Virus record (IMG/VR): IMGVR_UViG_3300042881_001491 | Coordinates: 1 to 23,669 of that record | Reading direction: 5' to 3' (one strand) | Length of the DNA stretch: 23,669 nt | Source: a virus | In this document: positions 6,656-16,013 of the stretch, piece after piece | Position numbering within the stretch: the first letter of the stretch is position 1 | Layout of the letters: the number at the start of each line of letters is the position of its first letter | The notes under the pieces: generated by a model | Seen by the model: the letters and a program-made list of their open reading frames with translations, nothing else | Databases searched by the model: none | Told to the model about the DNA's origin: nothing | Program-made: the position numbers and the translations under genes

Positions 6656-6790
6656 ATGAAAGTTTACGAAGCATTGGCAGAGCAAATCAAAAAGAATAAG
6701 CAGATTGAGGCATTAATGCAACTCAAAAAGCAGAAGGAGTACGAATTGAGAGAGATTAGATTGACTCTAAGAAAACTAATTCAGAAATGA
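6656..6790 (+). CDS. small coiled-coil protein
   Basis: A 44-aa, highly charged, all-helical protein (MKVYEALAEQIKKNKQIEAL and on) with leucine/isoleucine spacing compatible with a short coiled coil. It is not recognised. Support for its being real comes from the ATGA overlap of its stop with the start of the following gene at 6787 and from the otherwise empty stretch it fills. It follows the long hairpin by 14 nt. Confidence 0.55.
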   Translation: MKVYEALAEQIKKNKQIEALMQLKKQKEYELREIRLTLRKLIQK

Positions 6791-7260
6791 CAATATCACA
6801 CGACAACATAGACTGGTGGAAAAAGAATATGAGCGTAAGTACCGATTATACAGAAGATGATCTAACTCTTTTATTTAACGCTGCTAATAATGCAAGGTTC
6901 CCTAACGATCCATTACAGAAAGCTGCTAAAGAGTATTTAAACGGCAAGAGAGTATTTGAGAGCGGCTCTCAGCGAGACGACGATACTAATAAGCCATTAA
7001 CAACAGCCCTCACAGCGTATGCGAGATTGCGTTATGGTTATCACCTACGTAAAGGCTCTAATAACTACGGAAAGGATAATTGGAAGTTAGGTCAGCCAAG
7101 TGAGGCTTTATTGGAAAGTTTAGATCGACACCTAGCTCAGTATTTATCAGGAGACCGGTCAGAAGACCACTTATCGGCTATTATGTTTGGAGTGGTAATG
7201 TTGATGCAGAATGAGGAAAAAGAGGGGATTCCTGTTGATAATTATTTTACGAAAGTTTAA
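6787..7260 (+). CDS. DUF5664-like putative dATP/dGTP diphosphohydrolase-type protein
   Basis: A 157-aa protein. Residues about 80-145 fit the family once called DUF5664 and now listed as the N-terminal domain of dATP/dGTP diphosphohydrolases: a G..KYG..NW-like element (GSNNYGKDNWKLGQPSEALL, 90-109), RH (114-115), a GDRSEDHLSAI element (122-132) and a hydrophobic helix (MFGVVMLM). The pattern of conserved His, Glu and Asp suits a helical NTP pyrophosphohydrolase acting on nucleotide pools. The N-terminal 70 residues are unrecognised and polar. It is the last gene of the early operon, coupled to the 44-aa gene (ATGA) and followed by the convergent junction. Activity is inferred from the family only. 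Confidence 0.72.
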   Translation: MTISHDNIDWWKKNMSVSTDYTEDDLTLLFNAANNARFPNDPLQKAAKEYLNGKRVFESGSQRDDDTNKPLTTALTAYARLRYGYHLRKGSNNYGKDNWKLGQPSEALLESLDRHLAQYLSGDRSEDHLSAIMFGVVMLMQNEEKEGIPVDNYFTKV

Positions 7261-7270
7261 GTTTAATTAG

Positions 7271-7278
7271 TATATTTG
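7271..7278 (+). promoter_or_regulatory. Bacteroidota-type -7 box (TATATTTG)
   Basis: TATATTTG matches the Bacteroidota -7 consensus TAnnTTTG exactly. No good -33 TTG is present at the expected 19-21 nt upstream (7247-7250 reads TTAC), so the promoter is uncertain. It would start transcription near 7284-7286, giving a transcript of about 80 nt that ends at the terminator 7337-7363. Confidence 0.4.
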
Positions 7279-7284
7279 GTTAAT

Positions 7285-7363
7285 AGTTGTGGTTATCGTC
7301 TAGAGGTTTTTATTGGTTATCCTTTAGACAAAGATTGGGGGCTTATCGCCCCCTTTCCTTTTT
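7285..7363 (+). ncRNA. candidate small RNA or structured 3' UTR at the operon junction
   Basis: This gap between convergent operons holds two hairpins in a row. The first is 9 bp, GTCTAGAGG (7298-7306)/CCTTTAGAC (7321-7329), with one G-U pair and a 14-nt loop; the second is the terminator stem. A -7 box lies just upstream, so an independent small RNA is plausible; otherwise this is the 3' UTR of the early transcript. The first 19 nt (TTGTGGTTATCGTCTAG, 7287-7303) are complementary to the leader of the tail chaperone gene at 15140-15156. No convincing ORF is seen in the gap. Confidence 0.45.
7337..7363 (+). terminator. intrinsic terminator at the end of the early operon
   Basis: A perfect 6-bp G/C stem, GGGGGC (7337-7342) and GCCCCC (7348-7353), with a 5-nt loop TTATC, is followed by a T-rich run TTTCCTTTTT (7354-7363). 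It terminates rightward transcription. On the other strand the same stem is followed by AATCTTTG, which is a weak T-tract, so it could also slow leftward late transcription. The RusA stop codon starts within the T run. Confidence 0.85.
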
Positions 7364-7751
7364 ACACTGGCTCGATCTCTATTACCAGCTTGTCAGCACC
7401 TTCCTGATACGCATAAACCAACTCCCGCACGTACCTCACATTATCATCTTTAAATATTTGTCCTTTAGCTAAGTCTAGAAAGCATTTAGCCCACAACCCG
7501 CACTTATTATCTAAGTCCCAATTTTTAAGCTCTCTATGGTAGGTTATTTTGACTCTAACAGGCTCTTCTATTAACCCTATCTCAGCAAAGTCCTTACACC
7601 ACAAGAATTGTTTTAACTCATGGACGATACGTTGGCGTACCGAGTAATGGATGCCTGCATAAATTGCATTGTAACCCAAATAAATCTTACGCTTTTTGAG
7701 CTTGCCAATTTCAATAAATGTAGGCGGGTTATCATAAGTTAGCTTAATCAT
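7362..7751 (-). CDS. rusA: RusA-like Holliday junction resolvase
   Basis: A 129-aa protein resembling RusA-family endonucleases, which cleave Holliday junctions and branched DNA as dimers. The typical acidic pattern is present: D79-L-D81-N82 (WDLDNKCGLWAKCFLDLAKG) and D102-D103 (GQIFKDDNVRYV), followed by a C-terminal strand (KLVIEIEPV). The length is close to the family's usual 120 aa. It is the last gene of the late operon, overlapping the 63-aa gene by 4 nt, and lies after the lysis genes rather than in the replication module; late expression would suit debranching of DNA before packaging. The family is identified by motif only. Confidence 0.8.
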   Translation of the reverse strand: MIKLTYDNPPTFIEIGKLKKRKIYLGYNAIYAGIHYSVRQRIVHELKQFLWCKDFAEIGLIEEPVRVKITYHRELKNWDLDNKCGLWAKCFLDLAKGQIFKDDNVRYVRELVYAYQEGADKLVIEIEPV

Positions 7752-12625: not shown

Positions 12626-14445
12626 TAATAGTAATTATTTCTTGCGTTAGAAGATCTATTCATTAAGATAACCAAATCGTTACCACTAACTCTTGTCTCT
12701 AGTACTGGTTGAGATGCAGTAGTCATTGCAGCAGAATTAGTCATTGATGTATTAGCGGCTGTATTTACTCCGCCAAAGCTAAAACCAGAAGGAGGAGCGG
12801 CTGTATTAGTAGAACCAGATCCACCTCCAGCAATACTCCTAGCACCCGCCCTAGCAGCACCAGCTAATGCTAATAATGCAATACCAGCACCAATCGCCTG
12901 AAGTGGGTTTAATGATTTTAGTGCTTTTTTTATACCCTCTATTGCGATACCAATACCTATAGCCATTCTACCTAACTGCTCTGCCATCGATGCAATACTA
13001 TCTAATAATGCCCCGCCAAATCCCTTTCCTATATTATCTCCAGAAGCTAAAGCATCACCTATTGCCATTACTGAATTAGATATAGCGTCTTCAATACCAA
13101 ATTCAAAGGTATCTTGAACTCTCTGCTTTAGTCTTTCCATTTCAGCTATTGACTCATCAGTAAACTGCTTTATCATCTTAGGAACCATCTCAAACAGAGG
13201 TAGGCTGAAAGGGAATTTTGTTACAGCTAGATTTAGTTCATTGAATTTAGTGGTTAACTTTGCTACAGTGTCCTGCGTGCCATCTATTTTTTGTAGGTTA
13301 ACTATTAGGTCACCTAATGCTTCAACTGATTGCTTTTTAACATCAAATGGAGTAATACCAGGAGTCTTTTGAATATCACTAATCCTAGATTGATAAGCGT
13401 TTAAAGCCTCAATAACAGACTTCATTCTCTCATCTACAATAAGTGTGCTTCTCTCAAGTGGTGCTAATGGGCCTTCTTTCTTTTTAGTGCCGCCCAGCTT
13501 AGAAATAGAATCTGTAAACCCCTCTAATCTTTTCTTGCTTGCATCTAACTGTGCTGATATTTTTGTAAACCCATCTGCGAAATTCTCCATCCCCTTGATG
13601 GCAAACATATCCTTGTATCCCTTAACGAATCCACCAAAATCTAAATTTAATATGGATTTATTTAGGTCTTCATTCTTTACTACAAGTGACTTCATTACTA
13701 TACCCAACTTCTGTAATATAGTAACTTGATCTTGCACTTTCGCGTCTTGTAGATCGTATAATTGAGCTTGTAGCTTGGTATAATATGCGGCCTCTGCGGA
13801 TGCCTTAGCTTGTAATAAAATACTTTGGGTTAACCTATCTGTTGTATCAATGTTTTTCTTGCTATTTACATTGTTTACCGTTAGGCTATTATTATAAATA
13901 TCGTAATTATTGTTTAGCTGATTTACCGCATCTTGTCTTTGTGTTAGCGACTTTGTTTGGTCTCCAGCTATAGCAAGTAGAGACTTTAGTGTTACTATCT
14001 CTGTTTCTGCAGATGCTCTTGATTGGTTAACACTAGATGAGTATTGGTTTATAGCAGATGTTAATTTATCTACCCCTTGAGCTGTATAAGCCCAAATTGT
14101 TAACCCAGCTGTTAGTAATGAACCGAGTAGTGATATAGCAGCCCCAACACCCTTAGATACATTTGTTAAAAGAACTAATTGGTCTATTAAGATAGGTATG
14201 TTGTTTGATATTGCGAGAATACCAAGCCTAAAATCTTGTGCAAAGAAACCAGCATCTCTCAATACCTGACCAAAAGCAAATGCGACTAATCTACCACGAT
14301 TAGCATTAGCCTCCATGTTTTTAGTAGCAGCAGCAGCTCCATCAGCACTTTTCTTAAATTTATCCAAATCTGCTTGTACATTTTTTAAGCTAGCCTGCAA
14401 TGCACTTATATCTGCTGTTACCTTGACACTAAAATTACTATCCAT
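12625..14445 (-). CDS. tail tape measure protein
   Basis: A 606-aa protein. Evidence: N-terminal coiled coil (SVKVTADISALQASLKNVQA), several hydrophobic stretches (LGILAISNNIPILIDQLVLL near residue 75, AAISLLGSLLTAGLTIWAY near 103), a central helical region, and a Gly/Ala-rich membrane-like segment near 480-530 (LQAIGAGIALLALAGAARAG). This is the usual layout of phage tape measures, which set tail length and pass into the host membrane on DNA injection. At about 1.5 angstrom per residue, a tail of about 90 nm is expected (inference). It lies directly after the G/G-T chaperone genes, as in lambda. It is a short tape measure, consistent with a short siphovirus tail. Confidence 0.9.
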   Translation of the reverse strand: MDSNFSVKVTADISALQASLKNVQADLDKFKKSADGAAAATKNMEANANRGRLVAFAFGQVLRDAGFFAQDFRLGILAISNNIPILIDQLVLLTNVSKGVGAAISLLGSLLTAGLTIWAYTAQGVDKLTSAINQYSSSVNQSRASAETEIVTLKSLLAIAGDQTKSLTQRQDAVNQLNNNYDIYNNSLTVNNVNSKKNIDTTDRLTQSILLQAKASAEAAYYTKLQAQLYDLQDAKVQDQVTILQKLGIVMKSLVVKNEDLNKSILNLDFGGFVKGYKDMFAIKGMENFADGFTKISAQLDASKKRLEGFTDSISKLGGTKKKEGPLAPLERSTLIVDERMKSVIEALNAYQSRISDIQKTPGITPFDVKKQSVEALGDLIVNLQKIDGTQDTVAKLTTKFNELNLAVTKFPFSLPLFEMVPKMIKQFTDESIAEMERLKQRVQDTFEFGIEDAISNSVMAIGDALASGDNIGKGFGGALLDSIASMAEQLGRMAIGIGIAIEGIKKALKSLNPLQAIGAGIALLALAGAARAGARSIAGGGSGSTNTAAPPSGFSFGGVNTAANTSMTNSAAMTTASQPVLETRVSGNDLVILMNRSSNARNNYY

Positions 14446-14758
14446 TGTTATCTAATTTCTTAACGACTTTCTCGAACTCGTCCTTTGTTAATGGTTCTTG
14501 TTTAGGCTTTTGGGGTTTGCCTATATTATCTGTCCAAAGTGGGTGTATCTCTTGTGGCTTTTTTTGATCCTGCTTCTTTGCAACATTTGCATTGTAAATC
14601 ATTGATACCACAGTCCTTGTATGTTCCCACTCTTGGGTATTTCTTTTAATTTGACCATAAGCGTATCTGTTATAGTTTGCCCACGTCATATCGAAGAATT
14701 GGTCGGGAAGAAGCCCCACTTCACATATAGCAAAGTCTAGAACCTCTTCCCAGCCTAT
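14438..14758 (-). CDS. tail assembly chaperone T part, expressed by -1 frameshift from the G gene
   Basis: The frame from 14758 to 14438 (106 codons) begins inside the A7 heptamer of the G gene and reads IGWEEVLDFAICEVGLLPDQ before continuing to FFDMTWANYN. Annotated alone it would start at a GTG at 14719, but the extended frame has no start and is well conserved in character, so it is expressed as a G-T fusion of about 226 aa. T parts of this kind bind the tape measure and tail tube during assembly. The region FFDMTWANYNRYAYG and the lysine-rich C-terminus fit known T-type partners. It overlaps the tape measure start by 8 nt. Confidence 0.8.
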   Translation of the reverse strand: MGWEEVLDFAICEVGLLPDQFFDMTWANYNRYAYGQIKRNTQEWEHTRTVVSMIYNANVAKKQDQKKPQEIHPLWTDNIGKPQKPKQEPLTKDEFEKVVKKLDNNG

Positions 14759-15117
14759 TTTTTTGGCGATTTACCGCCTTTAGAATTAGATTCGATTGCT
14801 TGTTGTATCTCAGTAACTCCTTGTGTAGCTTTAACCGATTCCTCAAATACCTGAGTGATTTCCGTGATTTGCGAAATAGGCATATCGTCTACCCACATAA
14901 CCACATCCTCATACGTAAAGTCCTCAGTCTCTTTCTTAATAAAGCAGTTGTTCTTTAATCCGCAATAAACCAAATCAGCACATAGCTTAATAGGGTTTTG
15001 CTCATTGAACTCTACTACACCGGTATTGTTGAGCTTTGAATACTCGATTAATGCGTAGTTACCGAATTTAACACCACGCTTCTTACCACCTAATTCTAAT
15101 TGAATATAACCTGTCAT
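14755..15117 (-). CDS. tail assembly chaperone G
   Basis: A 120-aa protein with an N-terminal beta hairpin (YIQLELGGKKRGVKFGNYAL) and a helical C-terminal part (YEDVVMWVDDMPISQI, ITQVFEESVKATQGVTEIQQ), typical for lambda-G-like tail chaperones located between the tail tube and tape measure genes. Its last codons, CCA AAA AAA TAG, contain a frameshift heptamer. An AAGGAG Shine-Dalgarno sequence (15124-15129), 6 nt before the ATG, is one of only two good ones in the window, so this gene is translated efficiently, as expected for a chaperone made in excess over the fusion. Its leader may pair with the small RNA at the operon junction. Confidence 0.85.
   Translation of the reverse strand: MTGYIQLELGGKKRGVKFGNYALIEYSKLNNTGVVEFNEQNPIKLCADLVYCGLKNNCFIKKETEDFTYEDVVMWVDDMPISQITEITQVFEESVKATQGVTEIQQAIESNSKGGKSPKK
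14758..14764 (-). other. -1 ribosomal frameshift heptamer A AAA AAA
   Basis: On the coding strand the G gene ends CC[A AAA AAA] TAG; the seven A's are in register with the zero frame, the canonical X XXY YYZ slip site. A slip of -1 reads ATA GGC TGG and enters the T frame. This is the conserved way to make G and G-T proteins in a fixed ratio. Confidence 0.88.
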
Positions 15118-15123
15118 AATTTT

Positions 15124-15156
15124 CTCCTTTTAATAGTAGTTGTGGCTACCGTCTAG
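15124..15156 (-). promoter_or_regulatory. G gene leader with Shine-Dalgarno sequence and antisense target
   Basis: On the minus strand the 48-nt leader between the tail tube and G genes holds CTAGACGGTAGCCACAA (15156-15140), a small hairpin GTAG/CTAC with loop CCACAA (15150-15137), CTACTATTAA, and the AAGGAG at 15129-15124. The first 17 nt are complementary to 7287-7303 with two G-U pairs. Binding of an RNA here would lie about 10 nt from the ribosome binding site. Confidence 0.5.
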
Positions 15157-15165
15157 GAGAGTTAA

Positions 15166-15576
15166 TTAAACAGTTCCTTTTGTTAATGCTCCAGTACCTT
15201 GGAAAGATACGCTGAAACCTGAAGGACTCTCCATATCAGCAGTCTGAGAGATAGAAGATACGTAAGCGTTACCGCTCAATACCATGTCACCAGCAGTTGA
15301 AGTAGAGAAAGAAACCACTACAGTTTGTCTGTCTAATAACATCTGTACAAGCTCATCAGTTTCTACGCTACCAGAAGAAGCATAGTCGATAAGACCATCA
15401 GAAGATAAAGTCCAGCTACGTACACCAGCAAAGAACTCAGCCCATCCGGCAGAATCTTTAGTAGTAGCATCAGGCATATCCACACTAATCTCTAGAGAAG
15501 CGGTAGTAGCCTTTAAGATTGGGTTACCGGGGTTTCCGATTTTGATAACCAAGTTTGTTCCGTTAATTAAAGCCAT
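15166..15576 (-). CDS. major tail tube protein, second copy
   Basis: A 136-aa protein of the TP901-1-type tail tube family: beta-rich, beginning MALINGTNLVIKIG, with TTKDSAGWAEFFAGVRSWTL (38-57) and DGLIDYASS. It is clearly a paralogue of the next upstream gene: same length, same start (MAL.NGT.LV), the shared DSAGW.EF..G.RS.T core and GL.DYA. The tail tube subunit stacks in rings to form the siphovirus tail. Two copies suggest either a tube made of two subunits or one decorating/terminal variant. It lies directly before the G chaperone gene. Confidence 0.82.
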   Translation of the reverse strand: MALINGTNLVIKIGNPGNPILKATTASLEISVDMPDATTKDSAGWAEFFAGVRSWTLSSDGLIDYASSGSVETDELVQMLLDRQTVVVSFSTSTAGDMVLSGNAYVSSISQTADMESPSGFSVSFQGTGALTKGTV

Positions 15577-15602: not shown

Positions 15603-16013
15603 TTAAGCGATTGATGTTGCAAATACTTCTGTTCCTTGAAGCGTTCCTGAATAAGTTACTACATCTTCCATAGGAGCGTCAATAGTCATACTAGATACGT
15701 AAACATATCCGTTGAATACTAATGAACCAGATAGATTCGTAGTGAATTTAACTAAGAATTTGGTTTTGTTTTCGATAGCTGCCTCAATCCATGCAGGATC
15801 AATATAATCAGCGTAATCTACTAAGCCTTCAAAGTCAAATGTAAATGATCTTGTACCCATAATAAATTCGCTCCAACCAGCTGAATCGCGAGATGTTACG
15901 TCAATAGGGTTTGCTTCTAAGTTTAAGGTGAAGCTACGTGAGTGACCAAAAGCATAATTTGTGCCTCCGTCTACTGCGTATAATACTAAGTCTGTTCCGT
16001 TTACTAATGCCAT
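15603..16013 (-). CDS. major tail tube protein, first copy
   Basis: A 136-aa tail tube-type protein: MALVNGTDLVLYAV, then VTSRDSAGWSEFIMGTRSFT (39-58) and EGLVDYADYI, and a C-terminal strand region ending LQGTEVFATSIA. It shares length and core motifs with the gene 26 nt downstream, so the two arose by duplication. Which is the principal tube subunit cannot be told; the first is adjacent to the tail terminator, which fits classical order. The start is ATG at 16013, one base from the terminator's stop codon. Confidence 0.82.
   Translation of the reverse strand: MALVNGTDLVLYAVDGGTNYAFGHSRSFTLNLEANPIDVTSRDSAGWSEFIMGTRSFTFDFEGLVDYADYIDPAWIEAAIENKTKFLVKFTTNLSGSLVFNGYVYVSSMTIDAPMEDVVTYSGTLQGTEVFATSIA

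Follow-up and report, generated by a model that had tools for sequence, protein, structure and literature searches.

A short intergenic element in the genome of an uncultivated virus raises the question of whether a phage can encode a small RNA that acts in trans on the synthesis of its own tail assembly chaperone, and with what effect. The window, by which we mean the whole stretch of DNA analyzed here, is a record of 23,669 bases. Its plus-strand block, coding for a DnaB-type helicase and other proteins, ends with a gene for a dATP/dGTP-diphosphohydrolase-like protein (6787-7260), and facing this block is a RusA-like gene (7362-7751), the last of the minus-strand structural genes. The candidate small RNA (sRNA; 7271-7363, plus strand) sits at the junction of the two blocks. 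Cultured phages offered only remote protein relatives of the window genes: the presumed target gene, G, is 28.7% identical to its counterpart in Cellulophaga phage phi10:1, and the capsid protein is 41.4% identical to that of phi10:1 and 34.1% identical to that of Flavobacterium phage 11b. Because these are the nearest cultured-phage proteins, we infer a Bacteroidota host.

The presumed target, which immediately follows a major tail protein gene (15166-15576; PHROG 1407), encodes the 120-aa G component of a G/GT-type tail assembly chaperone (14755-15117, minus strand). The end of G carries a putative -1 frameshift site, CCAAAAAAA-UAG (14755-14766), and the -1 frame, open for 106 codons, would supply the T part of the G/GT product (14438-14758, minus strand). 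The same CCAAAAAAA, followed by UAG or UAA, ends the gene in 14 of 14 sequences examined; the -1 frame is open for about 105 codons in 13 of them, and the remaining one meets the contig end. A conserved programmed frameshift yielding G and GT is therefore predicted. A tail gene, a slippery site and an open -1 frame make up what we take to be the layout of G/GT tail assembly chaperones. Since the gene order and the conserved frameshift site match this layout, the label of tail chaperone, given in the original prediction, is well supported at the level of sequence. The G protein matched no Pfam family, and its AlphaFold model was too poor (pLDDT 49) to serve as a search query; a remote relative of G occupies the equivalent position in phi10:1.

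At its upstream edge, the sRNA locus carries a promoter-like box, TATATTTG (7271-7278), of the Bacteroidota -7 type. The consensus for this element is TAnnTTTG, and a -33 element was not found in Flavobacterium johnsoniae (PMC7366714). The box occurs once in the window, counting both strands, and TAT(A/T)TTT(G/A) stands at the equivalent place in all 16 distinct relatives; no -33 TTG/TTTG box at the expected spacing was found in the six groups scanned. The predicted RNA (7283-7363) is about 75-80 nt long, with an inferred 5' end at about 7282-7284 and a 3' end within the T tract, although no transcript data exist. In 15 of 16 distinct sRNA sequences, the predicted fold comprises an unstructured 5' seed, a hairpin and a terminator. 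In the window, these are the seed UAGUUGUGGUUAUCGUCUAG (7284-7303), hairpin 1 (7298-7306 with 7321-7329) and the intrinsic terminator GGGGGC-UUAUC-GCCCCC-UUUCCUUUUU (7337-7363; hairpin 7337-7342/7348-7353). The strong terminator foreseen in the original prediction was thus recovered, but its two hairpins came down to a single internal hairpin plus that of the terminator. Hairpin 1 is supported by a covariation of 0.631 against 0.331 ± 0.053 in shuffled alignments, none of 500 shuffles being as high. Box, seed and terminator are conserved across the 16 distinct sRNAs (again without RNA data), and GATTGGGGG...CCCCCTTTC is unchanged among relatives. The seed motif GUGG lies 3-4 nt past the box in most groups and 10 nt past it in the group of the window. 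Because this places GUGG near the transcription start expected from a Bacteroidota -7 box, the 5' end of the sRNA is probably free, an inference made in the absence of transcript data. No match to Rfam 15 reached the gathering score, the best weak matches being far under the cut-offs, and in cultured phages the sRNA DNA gave only short matches in the terminator region; the sRNA belongs to none of the known Rfam sRNA families and represents a separate RNA family.

Two further features of the locus were observed. The seed motif recurs in imperfect form (TTGGTTATCCTTTAG, 7311-7327) inside the sRNA's own hairpin, and the conserved UUGGUU that this copy contains may extend pairing to the leader or bind another partner, for example a host RNA. 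Ahead of the terminator, AAAGATTGGGGGC (7330-7353) is near-invariant in relatives and reads GCCCCCAATCTTT on the minus strand, and the element may thus serve as a terminator for the opposing late transcript as well.

The sRNA and the leader of G are about 7.8 kb apart on opposite strands, a plan shared by the linked contigs described below. Within the window, TAGTTGTGGTTATCGTCTAG (7284-7303) can form 20 contiguous pairs with minus-strand positions 15156-15137, 18 of them Watson-Crick and two G-U, and TTAA can pair further beyond a 3-nt bulge. The 17-position pairing proposed originally was confirmed and proved slightly longer, and the proposed pairing of TTAATAG after a 3-nt bulge is the same alignment, written as 17 + bulge + 7. 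A run of 20 was reached in none of 300 dinucleotide shuffles of the window and by none of 300 random 27-mers of the real window; the largest run was 19 in each case. Taken from this genome alone, the complementarity is moderately improbable by chance and no more than suggestive, and it is comparison that settles the matter. When eight phage sequences were scanned end to end, the 5' half of the sRNA found its best non-self site in the leader every time, with z scores of -4.6 to -7.3 for the leader site versus -3.1 to -4.6 for the next-best site. No other phage target comparable to the leader was found in these eight genomes.

Among uncultivated contigs, protein searches recovered the tail gene in about 45 and the RusA-side junction in about 25; among bacterial genome contigs, no confirmed relative was found. 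All ten contigs that span both loci carry both elements, like the window. By its own criterion, the original prediction would have fallen if the two sites had diverged in relatives and lost their pairing. Instead, in all ten contigs, as in the window, pairing is retained despite sequence change, through compensatory changes. Written 5' to 3' as leader and sRNA, the window has CUAGACGGUAGCCACA and UGUGGUUAUCGUCUAG; L016 with L055, on the same contig, has CCGAGCGAUAACCACA and UGUGGUUAUCGCUCGG; L035 with L058 has UCGGGCGAUAACCACA and UGUGGUUAUCGCCCGA; and L033 with L065 has CUGACAGUAACCAC and GUGGUUACUGUCAG. Intermolecular covariation was computed over a 16-bp block in nine cognate pairs, eight of them distinct. 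In this block, 97.7% of cells were paired and seven base pairs had changed on both sides; covariation was 0.408, versus 0.223 ± 0.030 in 500 shuffles, none of which was as high, and it was lost when the partner was slid by 1-3 columns. As the shuffle control leaves relatedness in place, we rely mainly on the slid control and the double changes. The 16-bp core is imperfect in two linked pairs, with one mismatch in L030 and one at each end in L033. With opening costs included, the cognate set of six types gave a net binding energy of -112.4 kcal/mol against a mean of -72.1 for 720 re-pairings, tied with one other combination for the minimum.

The circuit was not met in full everywhere. Some leader types lack an sRNA on their own contig, for example L027, with a predicted seed of GUGGUUACUAUUCAGAG, and L013/L019. 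Contigs that encode distant relatives of the diphosphohydrolase-like protein and have no G homologue, as checked in two of them, carry no sRNA at the end of that gene. Cellulophaga phage phi10:1 has its G gene almost immediately behind the stop codon of the tail protein, leaving no room for a leader.

The target site lies in a structured 48-nt leader (15118-15165, minus strand) that fills the gap between the major tail protein gene and G. Predicted folds share a two-tier hairpin plan in 26 distinct leaders, and in all 26 the Shine-Dalgarno region is one arm of the outer stem. In the window, the anti-Shine-Dalgarno arm UCUCCU (15155-15160) pairs with the Shine-Dalgarno arm AGGAGA (15123-15128) around an inner hairpin, GGUAG-CCACAA-CUACU (15135-15150), and the sRNA target site, CUAGACGGUAGCCACAACUA (15137-15156), ends 20 nt upstream of the AUG. 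The outer stem occurs as UCUCCU/AGGAGA, UCUUCG/CGAAGA, UAUCCU/AGGAUA or UCUCUG/CAGAGA. Most leaders have an inner hairpin of 5 bp with the loop CCACAA or CCACAU, leaders of the GAUAG type adopt an alternative inner fold at minimum energy, and CCACA is invariant. Covariation of the leader hairpin was 0.487 versus 0.248 ± 0.033 in shuffled alignments, with 99.1% of cells paired. The aligned arms were cut by hand from predicted folds, so the paired percentages lean toward those structures; covarying changes are less affected. Prediction and covariation together indicate that the outer stem sequesters the Shine-Dalgarno region. Comparison among these phages demonstrates both inferred RNA structures and their mutual base pairing, and the putative sRNA has two features of a trans-encoded base-pairing RNA, a location away from its target and conserved complementarity with compensatory changes.

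What would this pairing do? We consider it probable that the phage-encoded sRNA activates, in trans, translation of the phage's own G/GT tail assembly chaperone. The sRNA would be made from the end of the rightward block, via its own promoter or by transcript processing, and the free leader mRNA would fold into the two-tier hairpin, masking the site at which ribosomes bind to start G. Contact would be made between GUGGUUA, at the unstructured sRNA 5' end, and the invariant CCACA loop; from there, pairing would extend via the inner stem to reach the anti-Shine-Dalgarno arm. An AGAGG, GAAGG or GUAGG segment of the sRNA putatively mimics the partner of that arm, and the Shine-Dalgarno region and AUG would be released for 30S binding. 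A model of loop-loop kissing, in which the sRNA would begin with a hairpin, was also considered and rejected: 15 of the 16 distinct sRNA folds leave the seed unpaired, which favors contact between an unstructured seed and the leader loop. The loop of hairpin 1 holds a conserved UUGGUU, which may lengthen the pairing to leader sequence upstream of the leader hairpin; in co-folds, which are predictions only, this loop can carry the duplex into the region of the stop codon that ends the upstream tail gene. Transcription, activation rather than repression, timing, and purpose (licensing or timing chaperone synthesis) are inferred.

The original prediction named no sign for the regulation, and activation is proposed here from the position of the duplex. 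In every pair, the bound core lies at about -42 to -22 from the AUG and ends about 20-24 nt upstream of it; site positions and co-folds agree that the sRNA covers the anti-Shine-Dalgarno arm and the loop and never the Shine-Dalgarno sequence or the AUG. With the bound positions blocked, the ribosome site was predicted to open at a lower cost in all eight cases, 0.7-3.9 instead of 4.8-8.3 kcal/mol, although the relief was small for L025 (4.8 to 3.9); a control block of equal size in the coding sequence gave no drop. Activation is predicted from this fall in opening cost with the Shine-Dalgarno sequence and AUG uncovered. It is further favored because the sRNA bears a Shine-Dalgarno-like segment (AGAGG, GAAGG, GUAGG) able to take over the anti-Shine-Dalgarno arm, and because its 5' end is probably free. 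Some points count against this reading. Reliance on Shine-Dalgarno sequences is regarded as low in Bacteroidota generally, and the effect of the sRNA may for this reason act through the general structure of the ribosome-binding site. The leader could, moreover, be opened by ribosomes as they complete the tail gene upstream of it.

The same pairing might instead repress G, the long duplex near the ribosome site blocking 30S loading or recruiting RNase III and so delaying or limiting G synthesis. Its length would suffice for RNase III, and most characterized phage antisense RNAs, OOP and sar among them, repress, according to a review (PMC12197685). However, in every pair the core site stops 20-24 nt short of the AUG and leaves the Shine-Dalgarno sequence free, and a covarying stem already hides the ribosome site, which would be superfluous for a repressor; we regard repression as unlikely. 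Less credible still is a duplex that mainly directs processing, in which cleavage of the leader would separate the tail protein and G cistrons and set their relative stability. The site does lie between the two cistrons, and the predicted duplex may reach toward the stop codon of the upstream gene, but processing leaves the covarying outer stem with the Shine-Dalgarno region unexplained, and there are no cleavage data. The strong conservation of the CCACA loop and inner stem might also mark a protein-bound RNA element, with the antisense RNA merely antagonizing binding. We give this little credence: a seed-binding site explains the loop equally well, the covarying complement of 14-20 bp extends conservation past the loop, and no candidate protein was found.

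Wobble pairs bear on the strands involved. The sRNA stem, read on the plus strand, contains 14 G-U and no A-C combinations; the leader contains nine G-U and one A-C, and the intermolecular pairing eight and two. These counts fit a plus-strand sRNA and a minus-strand leader and not the opposite strands. Two alike sequences in intergenic DNA might simply be two copies of one protein-binding site, for a repressor or another protein, without RNA function, an outcome that the original prediction had named as a possible refutation; it is scarcely tenable, since the differences between the copies are wobble-compatible on the proposed strands, each copy sits within its own covarying RNA hairpin and both sites change together between phage groups, and a DNA-binding protein explains neither the strand-specific wobbles nor the hairpins.

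Translational activation by the sRNA has parallels among known systems. Among described systems, IsrK of prophage Gifsy-1 comes nearest by analogy; its short form binds in trans and promotes 30S binding, is predicted to destabilize a helix hiding a ribosome site (orf45) and activates translation of a phage gene (PMC4825925). Both are small RNAs encoded by a phage or prophage that would bind an mRNA in trans and open a helix over a ribosome site to turn translation on. IsrK, however, targets the read-through form of its own transcript, leading to an antiterminator, whereas the target here is a separate tail chaperone transcript encoded 7.8 kb away; IsrK is enterobacterial and the window phage Bacteroidota-like, and no sequence relation was found. 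Anti-antisense activation is known for DsrA, RprA and ArcZ with rpoS and for RNAIII with hla. There, as proposed here, pairing of the sRNA to the anti-Shine-Dalgarno side of a leader hairpin makes the ribosome site accessible, but these systems are host-encoded, have several targets and depend on Hfq in E. coli, whereas the window sRNA is phage-encoded and a single conserved target was found. Judged by the predicted structures and their covariation, two features of such activation are present, a leader stem over the ribosome site and sRNA pairing to the anti-Shine-Dalgarno side that leaves the Shine-Dalgarno sequence and AUG free; a rise in translation is inferred. The sRNA would, by this analogy, be an anti-antisense activator with an unusual target.

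Other phage RNAs share only parts of this arrangement. STnc6030 of phage BTP1 pairs with the mRNA of a tail-structure gene, but it is antisense to the tailspike gene, repressive and involved in superinfection exclusion (PMC12197685). OOP and aQ of lambda and sar of P22 also control genes of their own phage, but they are cis antisense RNAs that repress regulators rather than structural morphogenesis genes. VpdS (VP882) and PreS are trans-acting sRNAs of phage origin that depend on Hfq and whose reported effects are mainly on host RNAs (PMC12197685); for the window sRNA, neither Hfq dependence nor a host target has been shown. This 2025 review of phage sRNAs describes mostly regulator repressors, antisense RNAs and RNAs directed at host genes (PMC12197685). 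Within the open-licence literature searched, including parts of that review, no sRNA that acts in trans on a tail assembly gene of a phage was found.

Characterized phage antisense RNAs are mostly repressors of regulators, and trans-acting phage sRNAs with a conserved virion-assembly target of their own are hardly known. We put at about even the chance that a dedicated, one-target phage RNA licenses chaperone translation in the opposing late mRNA, tail assembly awaiting its signal. If so, Bacteroidota-like phages would control the timing of virion morphogenesis at the RNA level and in trans. The sRNA and its target can be traced across many phages, with compensatory evolution visible between loci 7.8 kb apart, and a regulatory circuit can therefore be inferred from metagenomes alone. 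The system offers a direct way to ask by what means phages keep tail chaperone synthesis timed or balanced, and how sRNA activation operates in a phylum whose Shine-Dalgarno use and RNA chaperones differ from those of E. coli.

Some observations stand apart from these questions. A looser pattern scan found look-alike elements with TATATTTG, AGUGGUUAACUGACAU and a GGGGGC terminator at L123:1123-1187 and L119:3972-4036, both on the minus strand. Neither contig has a G homologue, both were set aside as relatives, and no self-complementary target was found for L123 in the available sequence; the element is possibly another small RNA, of a different phage lineage lacking the G gene. A further hit, L120, was a chance match inside other sequence. 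In the window, the major tail protein gene at 15166-15576 neighbors a paralogue at 15603-16013, both on the minus strand and both PHROG 1407. Finally, a gene for a 1241-aa protein, whose C-terminal part is a Peptidase_S74 chaperone domain, contains a 124-nt direct repeat (18938-19061/19685-19808) with 72% identity between the copies.
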